From Frankiaceae bacterium (GTDB lineage: Bacteria; Actinomycetota; Actinomycetes; BP-191): DNA of 49,142 bases. The stretch covers positions 1-49,142 of the forward strand of contig DATMES010000055.1 of NCBI GenBank assembly GCA_035556555.1, written 5' to 3'. Of the stretch, positions 1 to 49,142 are shown piece after piece; within the stretch, counting starts at the first letter, position 1, and each line of letters opens with the position of its first letter. The translations under genes were made by a program, and so were the position numbers. The notes under the pieces are model-generated. The model saw only the letters and a list, made by a program, of their open reading frames with translations, was not told the origin of the DNA and did not search any database.

Positions 1-90
1 CCTGGGCCCACCACACCGCGACGCCGGCAGCGCCCGCCGCTTGACCCCTAAGACCCAGGGATGTCTCTGCGACCCCTACGGACAGGAGGA

Positions 91-115
91 GCGGGCAGGG
101 ACGAGCCCTGCCCGC
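91..115. terminator. Strong hairpin, probable terminator of a gene left of the window
   Basis: Bases 91-100 and 106-115 form a perfect 10-bp GC-rich stem around a 5-base loop. No T-tract follows directly, but a short T-run with a weak hairpin lies near 155-165. Positions 1-261 otherwise hold no convincing gene. The hairpin lies about 150 bases before the PIN gene and most likely ends transcription entering from the left, or insulates the operon. Confidence 0.5.
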
Positions 116-261
116 GAGGCGCGCGGCCCGCGCCGCTCTCCTGCCGGTTTTTCGGCCGCCTCTCCAACACCTTGGCGCGGTTGCAGCCGTATGCCACACT
201 TTCCCTGCCATTCGGTCGAGGGAGCCGACGGCGGAGGTGAATCGCGATCGCCTCCGGCAGC

Positions 262-1029
262 GTGCGCCCAATCGCTTCGTGTACGTGCGCGGGCGACGAT
301 CAGTGTTTCCCGACGCTCTGCGATTCGGGCTACTGCTTCGCCGTCGATACGAGTCACATCACTGTCATCGCGCGCGCCGCGCACGAGTTAGCGGCCCGCT
401 TCGGGCTCGATGAGGCCACTGAGTTCGATCGCCTGATCGCGCTGCACTCGTGTACTACGGGTCGCGTAGTGATGACGAGCGACGAGATCAGGTCGTCCGA
501 ACTGGACCTGTCGGCCCCGGGCTGCACTGTCCGTGTCTACGCGACGTCGGTGAGGGCGGACGCGCTGGACGGCATCGTGACGCGACGAGCGGCGGAAGAC
601 CCGTGCTGGGGAAGCGCCCAACCCGTGCCAGGTGATCGGGACAGGACTCTGGTCGCGGCAGCCGTTGCCTACGCTGCCGAGACCGGGCGCGATGTGATCA
701 TCGTCACCAACGACGAAGTACTCCTCAAGTGGGCGCAACATCTCGCGGTCGACTACTCGGTGGAACTGTGGGCTGAGAACTCGTACTCGGTGCTCGGCAT
801 GTTCCTGGGCTGCGGTGCGCTGACCGAGGACGAGCTCGACGTGATCTTCGAGAACGAAGTGGCGTTCCAGCGCTCGCGGACCGATGTGTCGCAGGCGACC
901 CGGCTCCAGAAGGAACTTCGGATGCGCGAAGCGATCAGAGACGCCGTGCCGCGGCTGCTGCCGTCGGGGGCCGCGAGCCCGTCCCGGGGTGCCGCTCGGC
1001 GCCTCGGTAGCCAGGAGGGTGCACCATGA
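262..1029 (+). CDS. PIN-domain nuclease, putative effector of an SMC-type defence operon
   Basis: Predicted 255-residue protein with the acidic layout of a PIN ribonuclease: an Asp near residue 29 (AVDTS), a Glu in the SDEIRSSEL stretch (74-81), a DRDRT/LVAAAVAYA helix, and a VIIVTNDEVLL strand in which TND is the typical late PIN motif. PIN enzymes use clustered acidic residues and a metal to cut RNA or, less often, DNA. The C-terminal 80 residues are not recognised and could be a docking domain. GTG 262 is the only in-frame start after the stop at 238 and has no clear Shine-Dalgarno, so the N terminus is uncertain. The stop overlaps the next start by 4 bases. Position and fusion to an extra domain suggest a cellular effector controlled by the downstream ATPase, not a free VapC toxin; no VapB-like antitoxin is adjacent. 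Confidence 0.7.
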   Translation: MRPIASCTCAGDDQCFPTLCDSGYCFAVDTSHITVIARAAHELAARFGLDEATEFDRLIALHSCTTGRVVMTSDEIRSSELDLSAPGCTVRVYATSVRADALDGIVTRRAAEDPCWGSAQPVPGDRDRTLVAAAVAYAAETGRDVIIVTNDEVLLKWAQHLAVDYSVELWAENSYSVLGMFLGCGALTEDELDVIFENEVAFQRSRTDVSQATRLQKELRMREAIRDAVPRLLPSGAASPSRGAARRLGSQEGAP

Positions 1030-1766
1030 ACGCGATGACCTCGGACCGGCCAACCCCTGGGCGTGCACGCTTGCTGCACCGCCTCATGGCGCTGATCGCA
1101 CGATCAGACATGGGGCTTGAAGTGTTCAACGAGACACGAGCCGACGCTAAGTGGGGTCCTGACGACACGTTCTGGCCGGCCGATTTCGTCGTCGTCGGCG
1201 CGGACGCTCGGATTTATGTCTCTGCCCTAGATGGTGCGGCCCCCGCGCCTGACGCAGTTGGCGTCTTCGAGGAAGCGCGCCTTGTTGCTCGCGCCCTTCT
1301 CGATCGCCTTCCGGACGCTGATGCGGTCGCGGTAGTCTGGCTATCTAGTGAGGACTTCGACTCAATACTCGTGACGGCGTACGAAGCGCACGACGCGGTG
1401 CTGGGAGCACAATCACAAAGGTTGCGAGCCCCAATTCCGATAGTCGAATGCCTACGACAGTATCTCGCCCCGGTCACTCCGAAGTGGGAAGATGCAGCCA
1501 AAACGCCGGCCGGAGACTCGCTTGCGGACGTGCAGTCGGACATCGACATGGCTACGGCGACCTCCGCTGGGCAAGCCGTGGAGGGCGTTGCTCACCGAGC
1601 GAGAACGGTCCGCATTGACGCCAAGCGTGAGGGCATGAACCTGAGTAAGCGTGATGCAGCATGGATTGCGCGGACTCTTCGTAAACTCCAGGAAGGCTCT
1701 ATCGATGTCGAGGAGCTGGAGGCCATTATAGCAAGGCAGACGCCCCGAGGTAGTCGTGATGATTGA
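1026..1766 (+). CDS. Unrecognised middle protein of the PIN/Rad50-like operon
   Basis: 246 residues with no family I recognise. The N-terminal two thirds look like a compact alpha/beta domain (FVVVGADARIYVSAL, DAVAVVWLS). The last 60 residues are charged and helical (LSKRDAAWIARTLRKLQ, VEELEAIIARQ), suggesting a protein-binding tail. There is no signal peptide or membrane segment. The ATG at 1026 overlaps the PIN stop and has a good AGGAGGG site 6-7 bases upstream. The 3' end overlaps the ATPase gene by 8-11 bases. Its place between an effector and an Rad50-like ATPase matches the accessory subunit (LmuC / middle component) of three-component SMC defence systems. That role is inferred from order only. 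Confidence 0.75.
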   Translation: MNAMTSDRPTPGRARLLHRLMALIARSDMGLEVFNETRADAKWGPDDTFWPADFVVVGADARIYVSALDGAAPAPDAVGVFEEARLVARALLDRLPDADAVAVVWLSSEDFDSILVTAYEAHDAVLGAQSQRLRAPIPIVECLRQYLAPVTPKWEDAAKTPAGDSLADVQSDIDMATATSAGQAVEGVAHRARTVRIDAKREGMNLSKRDAAWIARTLRKLQEGSIDVEELEAIIARQTPRGSRDD

Positions 1767-3633
1767 GTCGGTAACGCTGGTTAACTGGAAGGCGTTTGAG
1801 CGCGTCAGCGTCGACTTTGAAGACGCGTGCGTGTTCGTCTTGAGCCCGAATGCGGTCGGCAAGACGAGTCTACTTCAGGGCGTGATGTTTGCGCTATTCG
1901 GTACGCACGCGCATGCGGTTGACGCGGCCCGCTGTCTCCGCTTCGGCCGCCGAGCTGAAGTTGATGTACGTCTTCGGTTTGCCGGTGATAGCGTTTCGTC
2001 CTGCGAAACAGAGGATGCGGTCGTCCGAGTTCGGCGCGCTGTTACCCCTAAGCCGCGGGGTGGCGTGACTATCGAATCCACTATTCGACTCGAACAAGCG
2101 CCGCCTGAGGTAGTAACCCAATTTGCGCAGCTTAGGGACGACGCGCTGCTCGATGCGCTTATGCAGAGGTATTGGGGCGCGCCTGCCGCGCTCGCGTCGA
2201 AACTGCTATTCATGAACGACTCCGTCGTGTGGGAGCACCGTGATCGTGAGCTCCGCCTAAACTGGATGACTCAGATCGAGCGGATGCTCGGTCTAACGGC
2301 CCTACGGAATGCTTCGGAGGCGGCCGCACCACTAGCGAAGCGCACTTTGCGCGAGGCTGACGCGCTCCGGCTAACGGCGCGAAGGGAGGCCGACTCTGTG
2401 GAGGCGCTGCGGCGCCGCGCGGAAGAAGTTCGGCACGAACTTGAGGCAGTAAAGAATAGTCTCGTTAGCGCTGAATCCGCGATCGCCGCTCGCGCGACCA
2501 AGGAGGCGTATGAGCGGGAGTTGGTGGCGTTTAACGCTCGACTCGCGCATCACGAACGGGCTCTTGAGGCCGCGAGAGCCCAACTTGTCGAACTGCTCGG
2601 CGACCTTCACCTCGACACGGCCTCGCTTCAGGAGGCGCATTCCCGTGCCCTCGCCGAGATTCGTTCTCAGATGGAGTCACTTCAGCAGAGGCGCGGTCGC
2701 GCGTTGGCGGAGCGCGATCTTCTTGAGTCGAATGCCGACCTAGTCGCCGCTTCAGACGAGTGTCCTGTCTGCCTACGGCCGTTTGATGACCACGCGCGCG
2801 AGCAGGCTCACGCCGCGCACGCTGATCGACGTCGCTCCGTCGAAGCAGCGCTGGCGGACGCCGAACAGGAGGCGGCCTCGCTTGCGCTGTTAGAAGACAA
2901 GCTCTTGACGGTAGAGATTCCGGGCGATGCGCCTGTTGCGCCGATCAGGCCAATAATCGACCTGTCAGAAGTTGCCGACGTTCCAGCATCCGATCTTGAT
3001 GAGTTGCGTGAGCGTCGCGTCGCACTGGATGTTGAACTGCGGTCGCTCAACGCTGAGATTGCAGATGCCGAGAGCGGCGCCGACGCCTTCGATCAGGCGC
3101 GAGCGCTGTATCGTCGCCACGCCCTCGCCGTGGCTCTTGCGGAAGCTGCAGAGATGTCCGTCAGCAACTTGGTGGACATGCACCTTGAACCAATCCGCCG
3201 CGAAGTCCAAGATCGTTGGTCAAGGCTGTGGCCCGGCCGAGAACAACTGATACTTAGTGACGACGGCGACGTGTCACTGGTTGTTGACGGAAATGAGTTA
3301 GATTACGAATCGTTCTCCGGTGGCCAGAAGACCATCGCTCTAATCATGATGCGGATCGTTGTTCTACAAACGTTGACCCGCTGCCGGATGCTGATTCTCG
3401 ACGAGCCGCTTGAGCACCTCGATCCAAGGCACCGCAAGATCGTTGCGAATCTGCTGGCGGACGTGGTGAGCCGCCGCGGGATGCGGCAGATTATCGCCAC
3501 GACTTACGAGGAGAATATTGTTCGCGGACTTGTAGAGCGCGCGAGACTGATCGCCGTTCGAGGCGGCGTGACGGATGTACAGCCAAACTCTGTACGCTCC
3601 ATGTATCTGGGTAGTCGCGCTCTCGGGGCATAG
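1759..3633 (+). CDS. Rad50/SMC-like ATPase with zinc-hook CxxC
   Basis: 624 residues, roughly half the size of bacterial SbcC. Seen in order: a Walker A-like SPNAVGKTS (29-37) in which the usual first Gly is Ser; long heptad-rich helices; a CPVC hook (335-338) in the middle; a second coiled coil; the ABC signature FSGGQK (519-524); Walker B LILDEP (546-550 area) and a D-loop (EHLDPRH). The switch position normally His reads Tyr (ATTYEEN). The hook and signature place it with Rad50/SbcC-type ATPases that dimerise and respond to DNA ends or unusual DNA. ATG 1759 fits the GAGG at 1747-1750 better than the in-frame GTG at 1756. Third gene of the operon; probable sensor/motor of the PIN effector complex. 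Visibly lower GC than the chromosome to the right. Confidence 0.88.
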   Translation: MIESVTLVNWKAFERVSVDFEDACVFVLSPNAVGKTSLLQGVMFALFGTHAHAVDAARCLRFGRRAEVDVRLRFAGDSVSSCETEDAVVRVRRAVTPKPRGGVTIESTIRLEQAPPEVVTQFAQLRDDALLDALMQRYWGAPAALASKLLFMNDSVVWEHRDRELRLNWMTQIERMLGLTALRNASEAAAPLAKRTLREADALRLTARREADSVEALRRRAEEVRHELEAVKNSLVSAESAIAARATKEAYERELVAFNARLAHHERALEAARAQLVELLGDLHLDTASLQEAHSRALAEIRSQMESLQQRRGRALAERDLLESNADLVAASDECPVCLRPFDDHAREQAHAAHADRRRSVEAALADAEQEAASLALLEDKLLTVEIPGDAPVAPIRPIIDLSEVADVPASDLDELRERRVALDVELRSLNAEIADAESGADAFDQARALYRRHALAVALAEAAEMSVSNLVDMHLEPIRREVQDRWSRLWPGREQLILSDDGDVSLVVDGNELDYESFSGGQKTIALIMMRIVVLQTLTRCRMLILDEPLEHLDPRHRKIVANLLADVVSRRGMRQIIATTYEENIVRGLVERARLIAVRGGVTDVQPNSVRSMYLGSRALGA

Positions 3634-3651
3634 CGCGGGGCGCGCGTAGTC

Positions 3652-3671
3652 GCAACCTTGCGCCGGGTTGC
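3652..3671. terminator. Candidate hairpin between convergent genes
   Basis: A 6-bp inverted repeat (3652-3657 with 3666-3671) with an 8-base loop lies 19 bases after the ATPase stop and before the convergent gene ending at 3789. The stem is short and lacks a T-tract, so it is only a weak candidate. Confidence 0.3.
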
Positions 3672-3788
3672 TATCGCGGTCTGTGGAGGGCAGTTCGCCC
3701 GCCTTGGGCGTACGCGGCATGTGCCGGCGGCGCTACTAGCGGCTGCGGCTGCCTCGCACGACGGCGGCCGCGGCCATGCCGTTCGAAC

Positions 3789-4052
3789 TTACGCAACGGC
3801 GTGGGAACGCGACGGGAGTTGAACCTGGACCTCAACCCGGTCGCCCGTTCGACGGATCACCCGACCGCGGAGGGGTGCTTCCTCGTCGTCGCCTAGTAGC
3901 ACTTCGTCGCCTGGCTGCGGGTCGAACGTCAAGTCGTTCGCGCGCGGACCGTGCGAAATCCAGCAGCCCACCACAAGGTCCGCGCCGACGCTCGTGGCGT
4001 CATACCAGAGGTCGTACGTGCTTGATCCCACGCTCACCATCGTAGGGTTCAC
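3789..4052 (-). CDS. Small hypothetical protein, coupled to the upstream gene
   Basis: 87 residues, no recognised family. It has a mixed alpha/beta look with an acidic centre (PGDEVLLGDDEEAPL) and a C-terminal stretch (RGRVIRRTGDRVEVQVQL) resembling a small beta-barrel strand pair. No signal peptide. The GTG start at 4052 overlaps the stop of the preceding gene by 4 bases (GTGA) and has a GGAAGGG site just upstream, so the two are probably translated together. It lies inside the left island, tail to tail with the defence-like operon. Confidence 0.6.
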   Translation of the reverse strand: MNPTMVSVGSSTYDLWYDATSVGADLVVGCWISHGPRANDLTFDPQPGDEVLLGDDEEAPLRGRVIRRTGDRVEVQVQLPSRSHAVA

Positions 4053-4435
4053 CCCCTTCCTGTCCAGGCTGGGTTCTCGATCGGGCCGTGGAAGACGCGC
4101 CGCACGGCGGCGAACTGATCAGGTGAAGGAGAGGCGAGGACGACGGTCCAGTGCGGGTGGTCGAGGGTCGGCAGTAGCGGGAAACCGGCATCCAGCAACG
4201 CTCGGCCTTCCGCGACGAGGAGCAGCCGGCGGGTCGTGATGATCGGCCGAAGCCGCGCCAGAAGCTCGTAGTCGCCGAGGGGGACCTCCAACACAGAGAA
4301 GCCCCAGATGCCCCAGCGAGCGTGGCACTCCGAGACGCTCTTGTGCAGCGCATCATCCGCCAGCGTGACGGAGCCGAGGCGAACGACGACGAGTAGATCG
4401 GGGACAGCGTCGTCTCGCAGCGTCAGCGGCTCCAC
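4049..4435 (-). CDS. Hypothetical protein, first gene of a two-gene island operon
   Basis: 128 residues from the GTG at 4435, chosen because a GAGGGAG site lies about 9 bases upstream and the protein-like sequence begins there; an ATG at 4516 would add 27 low-complexity basic residues. The sequence alternates beta strands and helices (DLLVVVRLGS, WGIWGFSVLEV, RLLLVAEGRALL, WTVVLAS), typical of a small cytoplasmic alpha/beta protein. I do not recognise the family. It overlaps the 87-residue gene and is the last gene before the island boundary. A toxin-antitoxin pair is possible from size and coupling, but no motif supports it. Confidence 0.6.
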   Translation of the reverse strand: MEPLTLRDDAVPDLLVVVRLGSVTLADDALHKSVSECHARWGIWGFSVLEVPLGDYELLARLRPIITTRRLLLVAEGRALLDAGFPLLPTLDHPHWTVVLASPSPDQFAAVRRVFHGPIENPAWTGRG

Positions 4436-4555
4436 AGGCGCAGGCTCCCTCGCTCGTCGCGTTGGTAGCGACCGTATCGACTGACGACACCGACCTGCGC
4501 CGTGTTGTCCGCGCATCTGCGTAGGCGCCTCGCGACGGGTGCGCGAGCCGCAAGT

Positions 4556-4585
4556 GCGGTCACATCGCGGTCACATGTGACCGCG
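4556..4585. promoter_or_regulatory. 20-bp perfect palindrome plus direct half-site beside the island end
   Basis: Bases 4566-4585 form a perfect 20-bp palindrome centred on ACATGT. Its left half (GCGGTCACAT) is repeated directly at 4556-4565, 11 bases upstream. Such a dyad with an extra half-site is what a dimeric repressor or recombination directionality factor would bind. It lies upstream of the leftward gene pair and about 110 bases from the tRNA-Ser scar, so it may control that pair or belong to the recombination site. Confidence 0.55.
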
Positions 4586-4692
4586 GACACCCCCGGATTC
4601 GGCCGGACGCGGCGACAGCCGATTTTGCAAAACCGCAGGTTCGGGCGGTGTGTCACCAACTGCCCCGGACCCGCTCGGAAGTTGATCTTCCC

Positions 4693-4746
4693 TCTTGAAA
4701 ACCGCTTCGGGGCCACCCGACGTGGGTTCGAATCTCACGCCCTCCG
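4693..4746 (+). other. 3' half of tRNA-Ser(UGA): integration-site remnant
   Basis: From the anticodon loop (TCTTGAAAACCG, anticodon TGA, 4693-4704) through a long variable arm, a T arm with GGTTCGAAT (4722-4738) and a 3' acceptor strand GCCCTCC plus G discriminator (4739-4746), this reads as a tRNA-Ser(UGA). The 5' half is missing: the bases before 4693 do not pair with the anticodon stem, and no matching GGAGGGC acceptor strand occurs upstream. Homology starting exactly at the anticodon loop is the usual footprint of a tyrosine integrase crossover, so this marks one end of the island at 1-4692. Confidence 0.7.
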
Positions 4747-4773
4747 CTGCGTGGATGCGGCAGAGTGCTCGTC

Positions 4774-5505
4774 GTGAAGCTGCTCTTGACCTCCTCCGGC
4801 GTCAGCAACGCGTGCATCCGCGACGCGCTCGTCGACCTGCTCGGCAAGCCGATCGCCGAGTCGGCCGCGCTGGTCGTGCCCACCGCGATCCTCCCGTTCT
4901 CGAGCGGCCCTGAGCTGGCGGCCGGGCTCATCCGTGGCGAGATGGGAACGACGCTGACCGGCTTGGGCTGGGGTTCGATGGGCTTGCTGGAGCTGACCGC
5001 CCTACCGAGCATCAGCAAGGACGTCTGGCTCCCGACGGTGCGGGCCGCCGACGCGCTGCTGTTCTGGGGCGGCGATCCGTTGTACTTGAGCTACTGGATG
5101 CGGGAGTCGGGCCTGGCAGACGTACTGCCCTCGCTGGCATCGGTGTACGTAGGCACGAGCGCCGGCGCCATGGCCGCGGCGTCCACGTTCGGCGAGACGT
5201 ACACCGAGCCGCGTAGCAGCAGCGGTACGCCGCTCACGTCCGAGGACATGGCGTTCGCCACACCCGACGGAGAGGTCCGCAGGACGTTCGTCACGGCCGC
5301 GGGAGCCGGCCTGGTCGACTTCGCCGTGATCCCGCACCTCGACAACCCCGACCACCCGGACGCCTCGCTGGCCAACGCCGAGAAGTGGGCCGCGAAGCTG
5401 CCCGTGCCGACGTATGCCATCGACGACCAGACCGCCGTGAAGGTCACCGACGGTGTGGTCGACGTCGTGTCCGAGGGAACCTGGCGGCTCTTTCCGCCGA
5501 CCTGA
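4774..5505 (+). CDS. Peptidase E-like (S51) serine peptidase
   Basis: 243 residues. The start MKLLLTSSG is the standard N terminus of alpha-aspartyl dipeptidase (PepE) relatives; GTG 4774 is preferred over GTG 4765 on that basis. The nucleophile elbow GTSAGAM contains the catalytic Ser (about residue 129), preceded by LLFWGGDP, which forms part of the active-site pocket. A later PHLDNPDHPD stretch supplies a candidate His. The family cleaves Asp-Xaa dipeptides or trims small peptides in the cytoplasm; the exact substrate cannot be read here. It is the first gene to the right of the tRNA scar, beginning 27 bases beyond it, so it is probably chromosomal. No operon partner: the next gene starts 86 bases later. 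Confidence 0.85.
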   Translation: MKLLLTSSGVSNACIRDALVDLLGKPIAESAALVVPTAILPFSSGPELAAGLIRGEMGTTLTGLGWGSMGLLELTALPSISKDVWLPTVRAADALLFWGGDPLYLSYWMRESGLADVLPSLASVYVGTSAGAMAAASTFGETYTEPRSSSGTPLTSEDMAFATPDGEVRRTFVTAAGAGLVDFAVIPHLDNPDHPDASLANAEKWAAKLPVPTYAIDDQTAVKVTDGVVDVVSEGTWRLFPPT

Positions 5506-5591
5506 CCCGGCCCTGCTTACGCCTGACCGGCGGCTTTGCGGCTGCGCTGGTCGCGGCGTCGACGACAGCCGATATCGCCTAGATTCGTGAC

Positions 5592-6209
5592 ATGACCACC
5601 GACCCGGCCCTGCCGGCAGACGCGATCGTCGGCGACCGCTTCCACATGCGGCAGAAGATCACGCCATTCCAGAACGTCTACCGCGTCTTCGCCGACGCCA
5701 ACGGAGAGCCAGGGGCTCTGGTCGCCTACGCGAAGCAGAAGCGGCTGACGTTGCGGGAGTCGTTCACGCTCTTCTCCGACGAGCGCGCGACGCAGCCGAT
5801 CCTCGCCATCCAGGCGGACCGAGCGATCGACATCAGCTCCGCGATGATGGTCAGCGACCCGGCGACCGGAACGCTGATCGGGACTCTGCACAAGAGGGGC
5901 GGCCGCAGCCTGTTCCGGTCGACGTGGGAGATCGACCAGCCGGGCACGCCCATCGTGACGGTGCAGGAGCGCAACCTCGTCATCGCCATTCTGCGCAGGG
6001 TGTGGGGATTCATCCCGCAGGCCAACAACGTTCCGGTCCCGTGGGTCTTCCACTTCGACGGGACGTCGTCAACGGGAGATCCCGTGCTGTCGCACACTCG
6101 CCGGTGGGGCATCCGCGACCGGTACGTGCTGGAGATTGCCTCGCCCCTGCTGGACCGCCGGCTCGCCATTGCCATGGCGGTCTGCCTGGACGCGATGCAG
6201 CACCGCTGA
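5592..6209 (+). CDS. LURP-one-related / tubby-like beta-barrel protein
   Basis: 205 residues. The pattern of short strands (FHMRQKITPF, VYRVFADANGEPGALVAYAKQKRL, LRESFTLFSDE, PILAIQADRAID, TGTLIGTLHKRGGRSLFRSTWEI) followed by a C-terminal hydrophobic helix is that of the LURP-one/tubby C-terminal fold, a 12-strand barrel around a central helix. Bacterial members are uncharacterised; scramblase-like or membrane-associated roles have been proposed for the fold. No signal peptide. The ATG has no obvious ribosome-binding site, and a TAGATT box lies about 10 bases upstream, so the transcript may be nearly leaderless. Convergent with the next gene. Confidence 0.7.
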   Translation: MTTDPALPADAIVGDRFHMRQKITPFQNVYRVFADANGEPGALVAYAKQKRLTLRESFTLFSDERATQPILAIQADRAIDISSAMMVSDPATGTLIGTLHKRGGRSLFRSTWEIDQPGTPIVTVQERNLVIAILRRVWGFIPQANNVPVPWVFHFDGTSSTGDPVLSHTRRWGIRDRYVLEIASPLLDRRLAIAMAVCLDAMQHR

Positions 6210-6216
6210 GGTACCA

Positions 6217-6233
6217 GCCGCCGCATCGGCGGC
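6217..6233. terminator. Bidirectional hairpin between convergent genes
   Basis: GCCGCC (6217-6222) pairs with GGCGGC (6228-6233) around a 5-base loop in the 29-base gap between two convergent genes, the expected place for a shared terminator. No T-tract, as is common in high-GC actinomycetes. Confidence 0.5.
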
Positions 6234-6238
6234 AGCCG

Positions 6239-6520
6239 CTACTTCCCGCGACGCCTGACGCCGCGCGCCGCGGAGCGGGCGGCGTTCTTGCCGACGCGCC
6301 CGGCCGTCGCGGCGGCGTCCTTGGTGCGCTGGAACGCGATCGCCGCCCACGCGTACTCGGTGCCCAGCACCGCGAACCCACCCGCGATGACGAGGATGCC
6401 GGGACCCGGCAGCACGAGCATCGCGGCACCCCCGAGAACGAGCGCCGCGCCGACGATGGTCACCGCCACCCGCTTCGAGCTGCGGACGAGGAACCTGAGG
6501 ACCTCCGACGGCTTCGCCAT
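6239..6520 (-). CDS. PGPGW-type small transmembrane protein
   Basis: 93 residues. The central hydrophobic segment (VTIVGAALVLGGAAMLVLPGPGILVIAGGFAVLG) carries the PGPG turn that names this family of two-helix membrane proteins, followed by a basic helical tail rich in Ala/Arg/Lys. Start at the ATG on 6520; longer readings upstream have shadow composition. Function unknown in the family. The next gene starts divergently within about 35 bases, so the two promoters overlap. Confidence 0.8.
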   Translation of the reverse strand: MAKPSEVLRFLVRSSKRVAVTIVGAALVLGGAAMLVLPGPGILVIAGGFAVLGTEYAWAAIAFQRTKDAAATAGRVGKNAARSAARGVRRRGK

Positions 6521-6554
6521 GGCGGGGATCGTACGCGTCACTATCGTGGACGGC

Positions 6555-7556
6555 GTGGGTCGCTTCGCCGCGTCGCTCCTCGCCCTCGCGCTCGCCACAG
6601 GCTGCGCGAACGGCGAGCCCGCGTCCGCGCCCACGACCCCGGCCACCGCCGCTCCGTCGGGACCCGCGTTCCGCGAGTACGCCGTGCCCGCCGGCTCGGG
6701 ACCGCACGACGTCGCCGTCGCGACCGACGGGAAGGTCTGGTACACCGCGCAGCGCTCCGGCGAGGTCGGCCGCCTGGACCCGGCGAACGGCCGGATCGTC
6801 GAGGTGCCACTGGGCGACGGCTCGCATCCGCACGGCGTCGTGCTCGACGCCGACGGCGCCCCGTGGGTCACGGACAGCGGCCGCAACGCCATCATCACGG
6901 TCGACCCCAAGACGCTGCGGTTGCGCGAGTTCCCTCTGCCGCCGAGCCGCGCCGGCGCGAACCTCAACACCCCCGTCGTGGACCGCCGCGGCACGGTGTG
7001 GTTCACAGGCCAGGGTGGCGTCTACGGCCGCGTCGTGCCGTCGACGGGCAAGGTCGAGGTGTACGACGCGCCGGATGGCCGCGGCCCGTACGGCATCACG
7101 GTCACCCCCGACGGCACCGTCTGGTACGCCTCCCTCGCCGGCCACCACGTCGCCCGCGTGGACCCCGTCAGCGGCCGCGCGACGGTGCTGCGCCCGCCGA
7201 CTGCCGGTCAGGGCACCCGCCGCGTCTGGACGGACTCGCGCGGCCGCGTGTGGTGCAGCCAGTGGGACGCCGGGCAGGTCGCCGTCTACGACCCCGCGAC
7301 GCGGCGCTGGCGCGAATGGAGGCTGCCTGGCCAGGGACCGCGGGCGTACGCCGTCTACGTGGACGACCGCGACGTCGTGTGGCTCAGCGACTTCGGGTCG
7401 AACGCGCTGGTGCGCTTCGACCCGGAGACCGAGCGGTTCACGTCGTACCCGCTGCCGACCGACCCGGCGAACGTCCGCCAGATCCACGGCCGGCCCGGCG
7501 AGGTCTGGGGCGCCGAGTCCGCCGCCGACAAGCTGGTCGTGCTCGTTACGGCGTGA
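6555..7556 (+). CDS. Vgb-like beta-propeller lipoprotein
   Basis: 333 residues from GTG 6555, giving a compact lipoprotein signal (MGRFAASLLALALATGC, lipid Cys 17). GTG 6546 and ATG 6519 are in-frame alternatives, and the last would overlap the divergent gene. The mature part is a run of about 40-residue propeller blades with repeated GPHDVAV..DGKVWYT, HPHGVVLDADGAPWVTD and GPYGITVTPDGTVWYAS motifs, as in virginiamycin B lyase (Vgb) and other streptogramin-lyase-like propellers. Enzymatic Vgb is cytoplasmic and about 300 residues; a lipid-anchored version is more likely a sugar- or ligand-binding surface protein. I would not predict antibiotic inactivation. The last 11 bases overlap the convergent giant gene. 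Confidence 0.8.
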   Translation: MGRFAASLLALALATGCANGEPASAPTTPATAAPSGPAFREYAVPAGSGPHDVAVATDGKVWYTAQRSGEVGRLDPANGRIVEVPLGDGSHPHGVVLDADGAPWVTDSGRNAIITVDPKTLRLREFPLPPSRAGANLNTPVVDRRGTVWFTGQGGVYGRVVPSTGKVEVYDAPDGRGPYGITVTPDGTVWYASLAGHHVARVDPVSGRATVLRPPTAGQGTRRVWTDSRGRVWCSQWDAGQVAVYDPATRRWREWRLPGQGPRAYAVYVDDRDVVWLSDFGSNALVRFDPETERFTSYPLPTDPANVRQIHGRPGEVWGAESAADKLVVLVTA

Positions 7557-10500
7557 TGCCGAAGCGGTCGACGACGACGTTCGTCCCCGTGGCTCCCGTC
7601 CGACGCGTCCCGAGCACCGTGATCTTGATGGTGTGGACCTTGTCGGTGAGCCCGCTGAACCGGCGCGCGTAGCCGTACTTCGTCGCCGGCGCCCAGTTGT
7701 CGTACGTCCCCTTCTTCACCCCGTCGATGTACACGACGGCCTTGCCCATCGACGGGCCGAGCATCGTGACCCAGTCGATGGTGCGGCCGCGGAACGACAT
7801 CGAGAACGTCGCGCCCGCCGAGTCCTCGACGGCGTACGCCCCAGAGCTCGCCGACGCCGCGGACCGCCGCGCCCACGCGAAGGTGACGACAGGCGACGCC
7901 GACAGCACGCCGCCCACCTTGAACGCGTCGACCGCGACGTTGGTGCCGGTGCCGGACGTCGAGCCCTTCTCGCCGCGGACGACGATGCGCAGCGTGTGCT
8001 TCGCGTTCGACAGGCCGGTGATGCTGCGCGCGAGCGCGCCGGAGGTACGCGAGTAGAAGCTCACCTTCGACGCCTTGAGCACGTTGTCGACGTAGACGTC
8101 GGCGGTGCCGTACGACGGCCCGCGCAGGCCGTACCAGCTGATCGACGTGCCGGTGAACACGTACGACGCCGTCGCGCCCTTGAGGTCCGACACGGAGAAC
8201 GACCCGCCCTGCGCGACGCTCGACGACGCCTTGCGCCACGCGGGCTTCGCGGCGAGGCCGTTCTCCTGCTCGCTGGTGCTCGCGCGGTAGCCGCGCGTGC
8301 CGGTGGTCGCGTTGCCCGCGAGGTCGTTCACGCCACCGACCGAGATCGTGTAGAGCTGGCCCGGAGTGAGGGGAGCCGTCGGAACGAGCACGGCCTTGCG
8401 CGCCGAGCCCGACGCGCAGGCGACGGCGGCGTTCTCGCCGGTACGACAGGTCAGCGTCGCGGGGACCGCCGTCGCCGTACCCGTGAGCAGCAGGCGGACG
8501 GCGGCGGTCGTGACGCCGGTGACGGGCTCGTTCCACGACACGACGTGTGACGGGTTCAGCACCGACGACGGCGTGGCGATGGCCGTCACCGGCGCCGTCG
8601 TGTCGATGGTCCACGTGTGCGTCGCGGGCGCGCCGGCGTTGCCGAGGTCGTCGCTCGCGACGACGGAGAACGAGTGCTGCCCGTCCGGCAGCGATGACAG
8701 ATCCAGCTCGCCGCACGAGTCGGTGAGGCCGTCGATGGTGCACGAGTACGACGCCACGTCGGCGTCCGTCGTACCCCAGTCGAACGCCGGCGACGAGTCG
8801 TTCGAGAACAGCGGCGGCGTCGCGGTGAACGTCACGACGGGACCGGCGGTGTCGACGGTCCACGTGTGCGTGGCGGCGGCGCCGGCGTTGCCGAGGTCGT
8901 CGGTGCCGACGACGGAGAACGTGTGCTCGCCCTGCGCCAGCGACGACAGGTTGCGCGGCGACGTGCAGGCAGTCGCCACGCCGTCGAGCGTGCACGTGAA
9001 TCCGGCGAGGTCGGACGCCGCCGAGCCGAACTCGAACGACGCCGACGTGGACGCCACGCGTACACCGGGCTTCGACGAGATCGAGACGGTCGGGCCGGTC
9101 GTGTCGACGGTCCACGAGTACGACGCCGTCGAGGCGTTCGACGCCGCGTCGCGCGCCGTCAGCACGAACTCGTGGGTGCCCTGCCCCAGGCCCGAAGCCG
9201 CGTACGCGCCCGTGCCACAGGTGACGGGGGAGCCGTCGAGGGCGCACGTGTACGTCAGCGCGTCGTCGGGCGTCCACGCGAACCCCGCCGCCGTGTTCTT
9301 GGTCCGCAGCGGGGGCACGGCGGTCAGCTCGGGCGACGCCGGCGCGGTCGCGTCGACGGTCCACTCGCGCGTCGCCGCCGACGACGTGGCGCCGTTCTTC
9401 GTCTGCGTGACGGCGAACGTGTGCGCACCGTCGCCGAGGTCCGTGTACGTCACACCGCTCACGCAGGACGCGGGCGTCGCGCCGTCGAGCGAGCAGGCGA
9501 ACGTCGCGCCCTCGAGCCCGGTGAACGTGAACGCCGCGGTCCGCGAGTTCACGAGGCCCGTCGGGCCGCCCGTGAGAGATGGCACCCCGACCGCGATCGT
9601 CCACTCGTACGTCGTCGCGGTGCTCTGCCGGCCGGCCTGGTCGACGGTCTTCACCGTGAAGGTGTGCGCGCCGGCGGCGAGGCTCGAGTACTCCTGCGAG
9701 CCGTTGCACCAGAACTCGCCGCCGGTGTCGAGCCTGCAGAGGTAGTACGACACGTCGGACGACGGCGACGCGAACGTGAACGACGCCGTCGTGGCCGTCG
9801 TCGACACGTCGGGCTTCCCGGTGATGGCGGGCGGGTCCGGGTTCGTGAGGTCGACGGTCCAGGTGTACGAGTCGCCGCTGGTGTTGCCGGCCCCGTCGCT
9901 CGCGACGACGGCGAACGTGTGGCTCCCCTCGGTCAGCCCGTTGAGCGAGGCCGACGACGACGAGCACGAGACGGGCGAGGTGTCGAGCGTGCACGCGTAG
10001 GTCGCGCTCGCGTCCGGCTGCCACTGGAAGAACGCCGACGACGACGCCGACACCCATTGCGGCACGTTCCACCACCCGAACCACGACGGCGGCACCGAGT
10101 CGACGGTCCACGAGCGGATCGCGGCGGCCGAGGCGTTGCCCGCAGGGTCCACCGAGCGGACGGAGAACGTGTGCGCGCCCTGCGACAGCGACGAGTACGA
10201 CGTGCCGGTCGTGCACGACGCGGGCGTCGCGTTGTCGAGCGCGCACGTCGCGCCGACGGCGTCGCCGGACAGCGTGAAGTCGAACGTCGCCGACGTCGTG
10301 TTCACGAGGCCGGTCGGGCCGCCGGTGATCGACGGCACCGGCGCGGGCGTCGCGTCGACCGACCACGTGCGCGTGCCGGGCGCGCTCTCGTTGCCGTTCG
10401 CGTCGAGCGCCACGACGGAGAACGTGTGGCTGCCGTCGGACAGCGGGCCCGAGTACGTCTTCGGCGACGTGCACGCGGCCCACGACGTGTCGTCGAGCGC

Positions 10501-13245
10501 GCAGAGGTACGACGCCGCGTCGGCGACCGTGCCGAACGTGAAGGAGAACGCGTTGGCCCCGCCCGGCGACGTCGTGCCGCTCGGGCCGGCTGTGACCTCG
10601 GGTGCCGCCGGAGGGACCTGCTCGACCGGTGTGTAGATGCCGCCCGACGTGCCGACGAGGTCGAGGCCGTCGGCGCGGTGCGCGATCGTCGTCAGCGAGG
10701 TGCCGTTGGGGAAGCCTCGGTTGAGGGAGTACCAGGTGGTGCCGCCGTCGAGGGACTTGTAGATCGCGTTGCCGCCCCAGCCGGGGACACCGCCGGTGTT
10801 GAGCGCGAGCAGCGTGCCGGTCGGCGACACGGCGAGCCTGTCGAGCAGGTGCGGCGGCGAGAGCTCCGTCCACGTGCCCGCGTCCCACCGGTAGAGCGGG
10901 TTGGCGGCGTCGGCCGTCGCGACGTACGCGACCGCGCGGTCGCCGGGGTCTACGGTCAGCGCGTTCGTGGGGAACGCCGCCGGCGTCTCGCGGCTCGTGA
11001 GCGCGAGCGTCGTGCCGGTGACCGCGCCGGAGACGACGTACGGCGCGCTGGTACGGGTCGCCCAGAACGACGTGCCGTCGATCGCCTCGAGCCGGTTGAC
11101 GACGGTGAGGCTGTCGCCGGTGAGCGCGGAGAACGTGTCGCCGCCGTCGGTGCTGACGCGCACCGCGCCGCCCGACGTGGCGAACGCCACGGACGTGCCG
11201 GGAGCGGCGGAAACGGCTGCGGCAGAGGTGACTCCGGTGGAGACCCAGTCGGTGACGGTCGTGAGGTCGTACTTGTAGAGCGTCGTGCCGAACACCGCGA
11301 GCAGCCGCGCCGTCGCGCCGTCGCGGACGACCGTCAGCGCCTTCGTGTCGGTGCCGGTCGTGGCGGTCGTGCCGAGCAGCGCGAACGACCCGCCGCTGTT
11401 GGTCGAGCGGTACACGCCGGCCGCGGTGGCGGCGTACAGCGTCGTGGGGGAGTCGGGGTCGCGGACGATCTGGCGGGTGTTCTGCGCGCTCGGCGACGGG
11501 CCCTGGAACTTGTCGTTCATGACCGTGATCGCGCGGGTGGCCTTCGTGGACGTACCGGTGATCGTCGCGGTGATCGTGACCGGCGTGCCGGTCGGGCTCG
11601 CGCTCGACGGCGCGGTGTACGTGCTCTTGTCGAAGAAGTCGCCGCCGAACGTCCCGCGCGACGCCGTCCATGTGAGCTTCGGCTCCGCGGTGACGTTGCG
11701 CAGCGACGCGCTGAACTGCGCGGTCAGCGTCGCGTTGACGTGCGTGACGTACGGGTCGACCTCGAACGCGAGCGCTGGGTCCGCCGAGCCCGGCCAGAAG
11801 CGCGAGTCGTCGTCGCCGTTCGCGAACGCGTCGGCCCGTCCGTCGCCGGTCACGTCGCCGACGGTGACGTGGTGCGGGGTGAGCGGCAGTGAGGCGGCGT
11901 GCATCTGGGAGAACGTCCCCGCGCCCGTACGCCGCAGCAGGACAGGCCCGCGGTACGTGCCGCCGGCAAGGTCGAGGAGGCCGTCGTCGTCGAGGTGCAC
12001 CGCCTGGAGGTCGTGCGGGCGCATCGACGCCGCGAGGACCGACGTGGTGTTCATCGCGCCGGTGCCGGTGCCGAGGTTCGGGAAGACGACGAGCTTGGGG
12101 GAGTTCGCGGGGTTCGAGAACGACTCGCCGCCGACGGCGACGACGAGGTCGTTCCAGCCGTCGCCCGTCACCTCGGCGATGTACGGCTCGGCGTCCACGC
12201 CGGTGGTGTACGTCACCTCGCTCGCGATCGAGCCGAAGCCGTTGTTGATGCCGACCTCGAAGACGTCCTGGGTGACGTTCGTCGTGGTGTTGATGCCGAC
12301 CGCGACCTCGGGACGGCCGTCGCCGGTGAGGTCGCCGACACTGAACATCGTCGCGTTGAACGTCGACATGAGCAGCACGGGCGCGTCGAACGTCCCGTCG
12401 CCGTTGCCGGTCTCCAGCAGGACGTTGCCGAAGTGCTCGAGGCGTACCGCGTCGAGGTGGCCGTCGCCGTCGAAGTCGGTGAGCTTCGCCCTGGCGCCGG
12501 AGCGTGCGCCCCCGGTGGTCGGCACCTTCGCGTCGGGTGTGAACGTGCCGGTCCCGTTGTTGCGCCACACCTGGTAGCGCCACGTCTGCGCCTGCGCCGA
12601 CCCGAACGGCACGTAGATGTCGAGGTCCCCGTCCTCGTCGAGGTCACCGAGCTCGAGGTCGAGGACGAAGTCGTTCGTCGCGGTGAAGCCGTCGGCCGCC
12701 CTGGTGTTGGCGTAGTTCGTCGCGGTCTTCGTGAAGCCGGTGCCGTTCCACGACAGGGTCACGAACCGCCATGTGCTGAGCAGGTTGCAGCAGTTCTCCA
12801 GCACGACGACGTCGGCGACGCCGTCGCCGGTCACGTCGCCGATGTCGGTGTCCTGGCCGCCGTCGTGGCCCGTCGCGACCTCCGCGCCGAACGCGCCACC
12901 GGGCACGCCGCTCGCGATCGTCACGACCGCGTCGCCGACGACGCCCGGCGCCTCGACCGACTCCGCGCGGACGACCGCGACCGGGTCTGCGGGGTACGTC
13001 GCGGGCGGCGTGTAGAGACCCGTCTGGCTGACCGACCCGGGGCCGCGCAGCACCGACCACGTGACCGACGTGTCGGTGACGTTGGCCAGGGTCGCGGTGA
13101 GCTGGCGCGAGCCGCCGACCACGACCGAGGACGCGCCGGGCGTGACCCGCACCGTGGGCGGGTCGATCGCCCCCGCCGAGGCAGGCAGCGCCAGGACGGC
13201 GGCCCCCACCGCCACGATCACGAACGACGTCAGAGCGCGACGCAA
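7546..13245 (-). CDS. Giant secreted FG-GAP / Ig-like repeat protein
   Basis: 1899 residues. Sec signal peptide (about 1-25, ending ALPASAGA), then a Big/Ig-like domain (29-110) and seven or so FG-GAP/VCBS repeats with Ca-loop motifs such as GDVTGDGVADVVV, GDLDEDGDLDIYV and GDLTGDGRPEVAV (about 120-480). A sortilin-like propeller region follows (VYRSTNSGGSFALL, about 590-880), then about ten Ig-like repeats carrying paired Cys (TYACTLD, LxxGxHTFxVxAxDxAGN), and finally two copies of a carbohydrate-binding-like domain (SISWYGLRGPSYGTADVYVD and TIDWVTMLGPSMGKAVVYID). The start is TTG 13245 with a strong AGGGGGG site. It is exported, with no LPXTG or membrane anchor visible, so probably a secreted adhesin or matrix protein. 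The 3' end overlaps the Vgb-like gene tail to tail. Confidence 0.85.
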   Translation of the reverse strand: MRRALTSFVIVAVGAAVLALPASAGAIDPPTVRVTPGASSVVVGGSRQLTATLANVTDTSVTWSVLRGPGSVSQTGLYTPPATYPADPVAVVRAESVEAPGVVGDAVVTIASGVPGGAFGAEVATGHDGGQDTDIGDVTGDGVADVVVLENCCNLLSTWRFVTLSWNGTGFTKTATNYANTRAADGFTATNDFVLDLELGDLDEDGDLDIYVPFGSAQAQTWRYQVWRNNGTGTFTPDAKVPTTGGARSGARAKLTDFDGDGHLDAVRLEHFGNVLLETGNGDGTFDAPVLLMSTFNATMFSVGDLTGDGRPEVAVGINTTTNVTQDVFEVGINNGFGSIASEVTYTTGVDAEPYIAEVTGDGWNDLVVAVGGESFSNPANSPKLVVFPNLGTGTGAMNTTSVLAASMRPHDLQAVHLDDDGLLDLAGGTYRGPVLLRRTGAGTFSQMHAASLPLTPHHVTVGDVTGDGRADAFANGDDDSRFWPGSADPALAFEVDPYVTHVNATLTAQFSASLRNVTAEPKLTWTASRGTFGGDFFDKSTYTAPSSASPTGTPVTITATITGTSTKATRAITVMNDKFQGPSPSAQNTRQIVRDPDSPTTLYAATAAGVYRSTNSGGSFALLGTTATTGTDTKALTVVRDGATARLLAVFGTTLYKYDLTTVTDWVSTGVTSAAAVSAAPGTSVAFATSGGAVRVSTDGGDTFSALTGDSLTVVNRLEAIDGTSFWATRTSAPYVVSGAVTGTTLALTSRETPAAFPTNALTVDPGDRAVAYVATADAANPLYRWDAGTWTELSPPHLLDRLAVSPTGTLLALNTGGVPGWGGNAIYKSLDGGTTWYSLNRGFPNGTSLTTIAHRADGLDLVGTSGGIYTPVEQVPPAAPEVTAGPSGTTSPGGANAFSFTFGTVADAASYLCALDDTSWAACTSPKTYSGPLSDGSHTFSVVALDANGNESAPGTRTWSVDATPAPVPSITGGPTGLVNTTSATFDFTLSGDAVGATCALDNATPASCTTGTSYSSLSQGAHTFSVRSVDPAGNASAAAIRSWTVDSVPPSWFGWWNVPQWVSASSSAFFQWQPDASATYACTLDTSPVSCSSSSASLNGLTEGSHTFAVVASDGAGNTSGDSYTWTVDLTNPDPPAITGKPDVSTTATTASFTFASPSSDVSYYLCRLDTGGEFWCNGSQEYSSLAAGAHTFTVKTVDQAGRQSTATTYEWTIAVGVPSLTGGPTGLVNSRTAAFTFTGLEGATFACSLDGATPASCVSGVTYTDLGDGAHTFAVTQTKNGATSSAATREWTVDATAPASPELTAVPPLRTKNTAAGFAWTPDDALTYTCALDGSPVTCGTGAYAASGLGQGTHEFVLTARDAASNASTASYSWTVDTTGPTVSISSKPGVRVASTSASFEFGSAASDLAGFTCTLDGVATACTSPRNLSSLAQGEHTFSVVGTDDLGNAGAAATHTWTVDTAGPVVTFTATPPLFSNDSSPAFDWGTTDADVASYSCTIDGLTDSCGELDLSSLPDGQHSFSVVASDDLGNAGAPATHTWTIDTTAPVTAIATPSSVLNPSHVVSWNEPVTGVTTAAVRLLLTGTATAVPATLTCRTGENAAVACASGSARKAVLVPTAPLTPGQLYTISVGGVNDLAGNATTGTRGYRASTSEQENGLAAKPAWRKASSSVAQGGSFSVSDLKGATASYVFTGTSISWYGLRGPSYGTADVYVDNVLKASKVSFYSRTSGALARSITGLSNAKHTLRIVVRGEKGSTSGTGTNVAVDAFKVGGVLSASPVVTFAWARRSAASASSGAYAVEDSAGATFSMSFRGRTIDWVTMLGPSMGKAVVYIDGVKKGTYDNWAPATKYGYARRFSGLTDKVHTIKITVLGTRRTGATGTNVVVDRFGITP

Positions 13246-30330: not shown

Positions 30331-30423
30331 GGAGGCTTCGCCTAGTCCGGTCTATGGCGCCGCACTGCTAATGCGGTTTGGGTCTACAGCCCATCCGGGG
30401 TTCAAATCCCCGAGCCTCCGCCA
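30331..30423 (+). tRNA. tRNA-Ser(GCU)
   Basis: Class II tRNA: acceptor GGAGGCT pairs with AGCCTCC (30413-30419), G discriminator at 30420 and encoded CCA at 30421-30423. Anticodon stem CCGCA/TGCGG holds loop CTGCTAA (anticodon GCT), followed by a long variable arm (GGGTCTACAGCCC) and T arm CGGGG-TTCAAAT-CCCCG. The intact gene is kept at the integration end of the element to the right. Confidence 0.95.
30385..30423. other. Probable attachment site (att) of the right-hand element
   Basis: The 3' part of tRNA-Ser(GCU) adjoins a tyrosine integrase gene whose 3' end lies 92 bases away, the standard layout of tRNA-targeting actinomycete integrative elements. The matching repeat at the far end is not in the window; I found no second copy of the T-arm/acceptor sequence to 49142. 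The exact core length cannot be set from one end. Confidence 0.6.
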
Positions 30424-30514
30424 GATCTACCGTCTGACCTGCACCTTTACGGTTGTAGGTCTTCGGTAGCGGCTGCCTGGAGGGCGCCCGAACCGGCGAA
30501 AACGGCGCCGTTGG

Positions 30515-31810
30515 TCACACGGTGGACACACCGCCTCCCGTCGCCGCGACGGGCGCCTCGTCCGTGACGGGAACGCGACGGCGGCTGTCGAGCGACACCA
30601 CCTGCGCGATCCGATCGGCCGCGTCCCGGGCTACGGCGTGGTCGACGTGGACGTAGCGGTCGGCGGTGAACCACGACGAGGAGTGCCCGACCCGGGCGCT
30701 GATCGCCTTGATCGACACTCCGGCCAGCAGCCCGAGCGTCGCCGACGTGTGCCGCAGGTCGTGCAGCCGGATCACCGGCACACCCGCCTTACGGCACAGC
30801 GCCTGGAACCGCCGAGACACGAAGTCCGGCGACAGGGCCGTCCCGTCCTCGTTGGTGAACACCAGGCCGGTGTCGGTCCACGCCGCGCCCCAGGCCGCCC
30901 GCTCGGCGTCCTGCTCGGCGCGGTGCTGCGCAAGGACCGCCCCGGTGCCCGCGTCGAAGGTCACCGGGCGTTCCCCGGCCTTCGTCTTGGGCGCTCCGAC
31001 GATCACCCCGTCCCGCGTCCGGACCCGCTGCTCGGCAACGGTGGTCAGCAGGGCGTCGAGGTCGACGTCCTCCTCCCACCGCTGCCCCAGCACCTCACCA
31101 CGCCGCATCCCGGTCACAAGCGCCAGGTGGTACAGCGCCCGCAGCCGTTCCGGCTTGCGACCCAGCTCCGCGTCGCCGTCGAGGTAGTCGAGGAAGTCGA
31201 TCGTTTCCTCGGCCGTCCAGACGGTGATCTTCGGACGCGGTACCTCGGGCAGCTCGACGGCCAGCGCCGGGTTGAACACGAGGTACCGGGTGCGGACGGC
31301 CTTGTTCAGCGCCGCACGCAGCATCGCGTGGACCCGTCGCAGCGTCGCCGGGCTCATGGTGCGCCCGTGCCGGTTGGGCCGCACCGCCAGGTCGCGGAAC
31401 AGCCGCTCCACGATCTGCGGGTCACGCTCCAGCTCCGAGAGCTTCACCGACCCGATCGCGGGCTTGAGCAGCCGCTCGATGTAGTCGGTGTACGACTCGC
31501 GGGTAGTCGGGCGCAGCCGGACCTTCCCGGCCAGCCAGACGTCGAGGTACTGCCCGACGGTCATCCGGTGTGCGTCGCCGGGTCGGCCGAGCAGCGCCGC
31601 CGCCCGCTCGTCGCGGGCACGCTTCGCCGACTCCTTGTCAGCGAACCCTCCCTTCCGTTCCTGGTGCCTGTTGTTCCTGCCGCCGTCGATGTCGAGGCGG
31701 TACTCCCAGGGGCACTCGCACGCGCGCGGCCGGCCACCCGACTTGCGGGGGCAGGTCTTGCCGTGCCGCTGCGACAACCCTGGCTCCTTGCGGTTCGATC
31801 CTCTGCTCAT
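30515..31810 (-). CDS. int: Tyrosine site-specific integrase
   Basis: 431 residues. N-terminal Cys/His cluster (HGKTC, ACECPW) with DIDGGRNNRHQERKGGF, an AP2-like arm-binding region common in actinomycete integrases, then a SAM-like core-binding domain (TVGQYLDVWLAGK...). The catalytic domain has Arg236 (TGMRRGE), Lys near 275, His350/Arg353 (HDLRHTSATL), His376 (VGHSSS) and Tyr386 (ADRYVHV). It catalyses integration and excision at tRNA-Ser(GCU). Its ATG overlaps the excisionase stop by 3 bases (ATGA), so int is the distal gene of an ATPase-xis-int operon. Confidence 0.95.
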   Translation of the reverse strand: MSRGSNRKEPGLSQRHGKTCPRKSGGRPRACECPWEYRLDIDGGRNNRHQERKGGFADKESAKRARDERAAALLGRPGDAHRMTVGQYLDVWLAGKVRLRPTTRESYTDYIERLLKPAIGSVKLSELERDPQIVERLFRDLAVRPNRHGRTMSPATLRRVHAMLRAALNKAVRTRYLVFNPALAVELPEVPRPKITVWTAEETIDFLDYLDGDAELGRKPERLRALYHLALVTGMRRGEVLGQRWEEDVDLDALLTTVAEQRVRTRDGVIVGAPKTKAGERPVTFDAGTGAVLAQHRAEQDAERAAWGAAWTDTGLVFTNEDGTALSPDFVSRRFQALCRKAGVPVIRLHDLRHTSATLGLLAGVSIKAISARVGHSSSWFTADRYVHVDHAVARDAADRIAQVVSLDSRRRVPVTDEAPVAATGGGVSTV

Positions 31811-32109
31811 GTGTGGTGCCTCTCGGTGGAGAAGGCGTCACGGGGAGCAGTTGGTGACTCGTCCATTCTCCCACCGACCTGCGACACGACACCCGCGCTT
31901 TCGACCGGGCTGATCCCGAGCAGCGCGAGCAGCGGGGCGGTCGGGATGCGCAGTCGCCGGCCGAGCCGCAGCACCGGGGTCGGCCACTGTCCGGACTCCA
32001 CCAGCTCGTACGCGGCCGACCTGCCCAGGCCGAGCAGGCGGCCGGCGGTTGGCACGTCGAGGACGGGCGGCAGCGTCGTCAGGGCTTCGACCGTGACGTC
32101 GGCGGTCAT
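31807..32109 (-). CDS. xis: Excisionase-like helix-turn-helix protein
   Basis: 100 residues. Winged helix of the MerR/excisionase kind: DVPTAGRLLGLGRSAAYELVESGQWPTPVLRLGRRLRIPTAPLLALLG. Such proteins bend att DNA and turn the integrase toward excision. The C-terminal 30 residues are extra and disordered-looking. ATG 32109 overlaps the upstream ATPase stop (ATGA) and the stop overlaps int, so the three are coupled. Confidence 0.88.
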   Translation of the reverse strand: MTADVTVEALTTLPPVLDVPTAGRLLGLGRSAAYELVESGQWPTPVLRLGRRLRIPTAPLLALLGISPVESAGVVSQVGGRMDESPTAPRDAFSTERHHT

Positions 32110-33317: not shown

Positions 33318-33549
33318 CGCCGCGTCCCCCTGTTCTTGGGCTGTATCCCGACGTATCGGGATCGCCCTATACGCACGTAGACCGTCGTAGATCGTCGGCG
33401 CGTCGACTCTGACCTTCTAGGGCGTCTACGGCTGGCGTTATACAGGCGGATACACCGGTAGCCGACCGCCCGGCTGGCGCGGGTCTTGGTTCGGCTACCG
33501 CCGTCTAGCGCCCGCGCTAGACGGGCGTAGACGACGCTAGCCAGCGGGC
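33318..33549. promoter_or_regulatory. Dyad- and repeat-rich non-coding region
   Basis: 232 bases between two leftward genes. It contains ATCCCGA-CGTA-TCGGGAT (33345-33362), a 10-bp inverted repeat CGTCTAGCGC/GCGCTAGACG spaced by CC (33502-33523), and repeated CGTAGAC / GTCTACG motifs at about 33376, 33424 and 33526. The open frame across it (33314-33553) reads as low-complexity Arg/Ser and is rejected. Density of dyads suggests an origin, transfer origin or operator cluster for the ATPase-xis-int operon. Confidence 0.55.
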
Positions 33550-48960: not shown

Positions 48961-49142
48961 TGGAGTGCCCCCGCTTCCCCGGACACTGATCTTGTGGCGA
49001 AGATGGTCGCCCGAGAGGAGTCCGTATGCCGGCACCCAGGTCGCCTGAGTTCCGCCGTCGAGCGGTCGAGCTCGCACGGCTGCGGGAGAAGCCGATCGCG
49101 CAGATCGCCAAGGACCTCGGGATCGCCGAGTCCGGGCTGCGC
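48961..49142 (+). mobile_element. Left end of an IS3-type insertion sequence (truncated by window)
   Basis: TGGAGTGCCCCCGC followed by TTCCCCGGACACT (48961-48987) has the GGACACT-containing form of a terminal repeat seen in IS3-family elements. The transposase OrfA starts 39 bases further on. The right end is outside the window, so length and target duplication cannot be seen. Confidence 0.5.
49026..49142 (+). CDS. IS3-family transposase OrfA, 5' part only
   Basis: 39 residues visible before the window ends. The start MPAPRSPEFRRRAVELAR followed by EKPIAQIAKDLGIAESGLR is the Tnp helix-turn-helix of IS3-family OrfA (HTH_Tnp_1), which binds the element ends. ATG with GAGAGGAG upstream. OrfB with the DDE domain should follow. 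Confidence 0.85.
   Translation, partial: MPAPRSPEFRRRAVELARLREKPIAQIAKDLGIAESGLR

Follow-up and report, generated by a model that had tools for sequence, protein, structure and literature searches.

Among the tRNA-targeted islands of Islander, the class with an anticodon-centred crossover accounts for 2083 of 3919 (PMC4383910). Such islands have an intact tRNA gene and an integrase at one end, and a 3′ fragment of the tRNA in the same orientation at the other. AICEs of the pSAM2 type also have a tyrosine integrase at the 3′ end of a tRNA gene, and related AICE integrases use different tRNAs (PMC3218068).

The locus described here belongs to a Frankiaceae bacterium (genome G000, GCA_035556555.1) and appears to span two contigs, C35 and C55. 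The window that was analysed is the whole of contig C55 (DATMES010000055.1, 49,142 nucleotides), and the assembly holds no DNA further to its left. The locus is a textbook example of the anticodon class of tRNA-targeted islands (PMC4383910, PMC8371274), related to AICEs (PMC3218068). The integrase gene lies between an intact tRNA-Ser(UGA) gene and a displaced 3′ fragment, both on the + strand in C35-to-C55 order, and the integrase targets the 3′ end of its tRNA, as do those of AICEs. Unlike the Islander islands, this one is split over two contigs by an IS110 remnant, and the divergence of its displaced half from the working gene is unusually high. The likeness to AICEs extends to related elements in these genomes, which carry an HTH_17 protein, WhiB, Replic_Relax and an FtsK-like protein, whereas the retained island has no recognised replication or FtsK-type transfer gene and its integrase is truncated. 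What makes the locus a little unusual is the divergence between the displaced and working halves, together with a P-arm module common to several integrases and tRNA targets.

The half tRNA, its intact partner and the probable join between contigs

The right border of the island and the left tip of the window comprise the following features.

1 to 44, + strand: C-terminal end of an IS110-family transposase (WAHHTATPAAPAA-stop), at the contig break point
4693 to 4747, + strand: displaced 3′ part of tRNA-Ser(UGA), very probably attR, with the anticodon loop CTTGAAA at 4694 to 4700
4765 to 5505, + strand: first gene to the right of the island, peptidase S51 family, host-like in composition

The half, with the sequence TCTTGAAAACCGCTTCGGGGCCACCCGACGTGGGTTCGAATCTCACGCCCTCCGC, begins one base ahead of the anticodon loop with TCTTGAAAACCGCT, and continues through the variable arm, the T arm and the 3′ strand of the acceptor. 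The original prediction, made from the letters of the window, was of a 3′ half tRNA-Ser(UGA) that starts at the anticodon loop and has no 5′ half, and this description holds: similarity begins sharply at 4693, and nothing resembling a 5′ half is found to the left. The span of 4693 to 4746 located the feature correctly, and its right end lies one base further on, at 4747. As the prediction had expected of a tRNA scan, no intact gene was found at the site; neither ARAGORN nor Rfam (gathering thresholds) called a tRNA at 4693-4747, and the sole tRNA that they called in the window was tRNA-Ser(GCT) at 30331.

The best other match to the half in the genome is an intact tRNA-Ser(UGA) at C35:153044-153131 (E 1.2e-9, 83% identity). 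This match far exceeds chance, with a local score of 63 against a maximum of 28 across 160 kb of other host DNA in the same scan. A fortuitous similarity, or a tRNA pseudogene that decayed in the ordinary way and is unconnected with any element, would be in keeping with the lack of an intact gene at this place and with an identity of only 83%. Such an explanation is almost certainly wrong, as it conflicts with the genome-wide E value and with the sharp start at the anticodon loop, and is contradicted by the adjoining P arm, which is common to complete elements (see below).

A whole-genome search found only one tRNA-Ser(UGA) with an intact gene, and it lies 1.36 kb from the end of C35. Directly after it, and facing it, is a tyrosine integrase gene (C35:153193-154203; PF00589, E 2.8e-21; phrog_1, 4.9e-65), beyond which part of a transposase of the IS110 family continues to the contig end and is cut off there. 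The intact tRNA-Ser(UGA) and the integrase that were predicted to lie to the left of the window are, therefore, both present at the tip of C35. With the C35 end adjoining the window start, as synteny and the attachment arms indicate, they bear out the proposal of integrase-mediated insertion. The compositional contrast across the border is also as predicted, with a lower-GC island on the left and chromosomal genes on the right: GC content is 63.9% in 1-4692 versus 72.1% in 4747-30330, and third-codon-position GC steps from 0.63-0.80 in the island genes to 0.92-0.97 in the nearest genes beyond the border.

In our favoured model, which we hold with high confidence, the half is attR, the far junction of a tyrosine-integrase element that entered tRNA-Ser(UGA), with the anticodon loop as the place of strand exchange. 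In the presumed order of events, the integrase would insert the element into the tRNA gene through that loop. The resulting attL, reading from C35:153044, would consist of the host's 5′ half, a 3′ half brought by the element that keeps the gene functional, the P′ arm and the integrase gene. The original 3′ half of the host would be displaced to the far end, where it would form the half in the window.

The two ends of the island lie on different contigs, and their adjacency is drawn from synteny and the IS110 remnant. Remnants of IS110 lie on both contig tips, at the end of C35 and the start of the window, and on the same strand. In each of two congeners, G001 and G002, a single tRNA-Ser(UGA) is flanked by counterparts of the genes found ahead of the tRNA on C35 and of those at 21-31 kb of the window. 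The segment described as PIN/Rad50-like is absent from both, which agrees with the prediction for relatives lacking the island. Together with the 19-bp arm repeats described below, these observations lead us to infer that the C35 end adjoins the window start. The last 141 bases of C35 are the first 141 bases of contig C2 and not those of the window, so the assembly alone leaves the C35-C55 join undecided. Contig C2 is the only other contig to carry that IS110, and was judged from synteny to be the less likely neighbour of C35, as it shows no synteny with C35 around tRNA-Ser(UGA) in G001 or G002.

The exact overlap of 141 bp between the C35 end and the C2 start would also suit an arrangement in which the half borders an element whose integrase end is elsewhere, for example beyond C2, and the C35 integrase marks another insertion. 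We consider this very unlikely, since a single tRNA-Ser(UGA) was found in the genome, the 19-bp arm repeats are identical, and the synteny around tRNA-Ser(UGA) in the two congeners involves C35 and C55, and not C2.

Both congeners carry the same intact tRNA without a displaced half. A base-exact empty site was not found in either, because the DNA next to the tRNA is altered in both, and G002 keeps an integrase remnant; in G001, the 3′ half and the 16-bp motif that follows it match the element side and not the right flank in the window. The same tRNA site in G002 has other cargo (L069, G002:C40, 8892-11713), comprising an HD-CE + HATPase protein and a 358-aa protein assigned to no family, which sits behind the integrase remnant of 180 bp. 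Host-like genes occupy 4747-25500 of the window and are not tRNA-adjacent in either congener. The region between the two serine tRNAs is variable, with 2.4 kb to a shared VOC-like gene in G001 and 13.5 kb in G002. At the right end of the window, 48961-49142 is 98.9% identical, in inverted orientation, to C35:39-220, and represents another contig-break repeat.

Attachment-site arms and related elements

To the left of the half, and extending into it, are the putative components of the attachment site.

4693 to 4706, + strand: 14-bp core TCTTGAAAACCGCT, identical to C35:153075-153088 in the intact tRNA
4556 to 4692, + strand: P arm of the attachment site of the element, as judged from alignment with its counterpart in the C12 element and from a five-way alignment
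4556 to 4574, + strand: arm-type repeat GCGGTCAC-ATC-GCGGTCAC, 19 bp, found again without change at C35:153189-153207, on the side of the integrase
4626 to 4641, − strand: inverted copy of the TGACCTGCGGYTTTGC motif that is found after the intact tRNA

The identity of the core suggests that strand exchange took place within the anticodon loop. The P arm comprises the 137 bases to the left of the half. In the window, the 19-bp repeat ends 118 bp to the left of the core; the copy on C35 starts 100 bp to the right of the core there. Judged on its sequence, with a fragment that begins at the anticodon loop and arm-type repeats that flank the core, the site would fall into the anticodon-loop class. 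The motif behind the intact tRNA, TGACCCGCGGCTTTGC, is found inverted at 4626-4641 with a few changes. The reverse complement of the P arm scores 39 against the P′ arm, whilst the maximum among 3000 random pairs was 38; this margin for the two arms as possible inverted images is thin alone, and is consistent with the other attachment-site evidence. The P arm of the window scores 103 against that of the C12 element, and the best of 3000 random pairs scored 41.

The 16-bp motif TGACCTGCGGYTTTGC is present at 13 places in the source genome and also in relatives, whilst a reversed-pattern control gave none in six of seven genomes. At the ends of elements it often lies directly behind the tRNA, and P arms often contain it in inverted orientation; it also occurs at places without a tRNA or integrase.

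The C12 element of the same genome is complete, with a length of 10.3 kb, and occupies tRNA-Arg(ACG) (intact tRNA at 49797-49869, integrase at 48724-49701). Its 3′ half, with the anticodon loop as its starting point, lies near 39.4 kb and is identical at 43 of 43 positions. The cargo of this element (L145, G000:C12:39440-49870) includes a TIR effector of the CAP12/Pycsar type, WhiB and Replic_Relax, and an HTH_17 protein adjoins the integrase.

A pattern derived from the P arm, including that of C12 and free of tRNA sequence, identified four loci in 394 genomes, and its control identified none. At all four, the P arm is followed by a tRNA 3′ half that starts from the anticodon loop, with no full tRNA, and the tRNAs are Lys(CUU), Arg(ACG), Ser(GCT) and Ser(UGA). 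The C12 locus was a source of the pattern, and those in G001 and on G097:C16 had been seen beforehand; the one wholly fresh match, on G097:C43, belongs to a genome with a C35-like integrase. This genome, G097, is from another family, and has an integrase 89-90% identical to that of C35 beside tRNA-Ser(UGA), as well as a near-identical P arm ahead of a tRNA-Ser(UGA) half. A single contig holds the half together with the intact gene and the integrase in G054 (18.5 kb) and in G119 (5.6 kb), with the same geometry, and both elements have arm repeats of their own. More broadly, for 15 of the 17 loci with related integrases, the distance from the locus end to a tRNA gene is roughly 250 bp or less. 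Identity between the displaced half and the intact 3′ half is approximately 97% in G119 and 100% in the C12 and G097 elements, compared with 83% here.

A second element of the same family lies within the window at 30331-34452, and comprises the intact tRNA-Ser(GCT), an integrase gene (30515-31810), an AAA ATPase gene with a weak BrxC/D match, and a gene for a Replic_Relax protein. No displaced Ser(GCT) half was found in the rest of the window.

Cargo and state of the island

The island genes sequenced in the window are as follows.

262 to 1029, + strand: 255-aa protein, assigned to no family
1026 to 1766, + strand: 246-aa protein, the gene overlapping both of its neighbours
1756 to 3633, + strand: 625-aa SMC/Rad50/SbcC-like ATPase, with mad3 as its best defence-model match
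3789 to 4052, − strand: small ORF at the right end of the island, part of which is 81% identical to C35:140102-140212
4049 to 4516, − strand: ORF at the right end of the island

The cargo is an overlapping cluster of three genes, the third of which encodes the SMC/Rad50-like ATPase. The original prediction called the island defence-like, and that label fits the ATPase, which resembles defence ATPases (mad3, 2.5e-25; LmuB, 2.2e-16), but not its two partners, neither of which matches a defence model. With the ATPase alone matching, the cluster does not make up a complete known anti-phage defence system. No support was found for the PIN label that had been given to the product of 262-1029; a single-sequence structure model of this protein had a mean pLDDT of 38.8 and was set aside. 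No relatives of the ATPase were found at E 1e-40 in 394 genomes, and none in viral contigs. One distant relative is encoded on a plasmid of Mycobacterium avium, where the upstream gene is unrelated to that of the island.

The retained element is approximately 6.3 kb in length, made up of C35:153132-154491, a gap of about 0.25 kb and window 1-4692; the gap lies within the IS110 remnant and its size is an estimate from C2. The C35 integrase has no arm-binding domain. Homology to the C12 and G097 integrases begins only at around residue 55, downstream of an in-frame stop and beside the IS110 piece, which is also truncated. Pfam searches recognised no replication, transfer or excision genes among the sequenced island ORFs: there was no AICE replication initiator or primase-polymerase gene among them, and no FtsK/SpoIIIE-type transfer gene in the sequenced part of the island, though the gap of about 0.25 kb could hold a remnant of one. 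As the integrase seems to have lost its N-terminal arm-binding domain at the IS110 join, the island is probably stranded and immobile.

Origin of the two 3′ halves

In two stems, the half differs from the intact 3′ half by three pairs changed on both sides and one G-C pair changed to G-U, with no pair broken. Seven random changes in those stems would keep all ten pairs with a probability of 0.0005. When the 5′ half from C35 is joined to the window half, the reconstituted attB folds as a normal tRNA-Ser(UGA) of 86 bases. The compensated changes and the normal fold imply that the half derives from a working tRNA and is little decayed.

The same compensated differences could also be read as a sign of tandem or serial insertion, in which the half borders two successive elements and its sequence comes from the earlier one rather than from the host, and the interval to about 21-25 kb of the window does vary between congeners as well. 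We regard this as unlikely, though less so than the other alternatives, since the window has no second tRNA-Ser(UGA) half or Ser(UGA) integrase to the right, and the genes at 4765-13245 are host-like in composition.

By the logic of integration, the window half looks like the displaced host original, and the gene in use would carry a 3′ half supplied by the island. The T stem is in line with the half being the original, as its GTGGG is common among relatives and the GAGGG of the intact gene is rare. Searches for a donor of the half, with one exact, partly degenerate pattern, found none in 84,980 species genomes and viral contigs, and phage and plasmid records gave only ordinary tRNA-Ser-like matches of 78-84%.

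Behind the same tRNA, G002 keeps the integrase remnant with an arm repeat, and G001 keeps the motif. Both fit a single insertion that would have taken place before the three species split. A fuller reading, to which we give even chances, is that this insertion exchanged the 3′ half of the single tRNA-Ser(UGA) of the host for a different, compensated sequence, that all three species now depend on the replacement, that the window holds the sole surviving original half, and that a conserved P-arm module serves different integrases and tRNAs.

The right edge of the island is now fixed to the base, and its left edge is located on another contig. A search with nothing but the attP arm that adjoins a half tRNA can locate borders of this kind. 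Lastly, our findings suggest that half of a tRNA gene that is essential and present in a single copy can be replaced for good by a mobile element throughout a genus.
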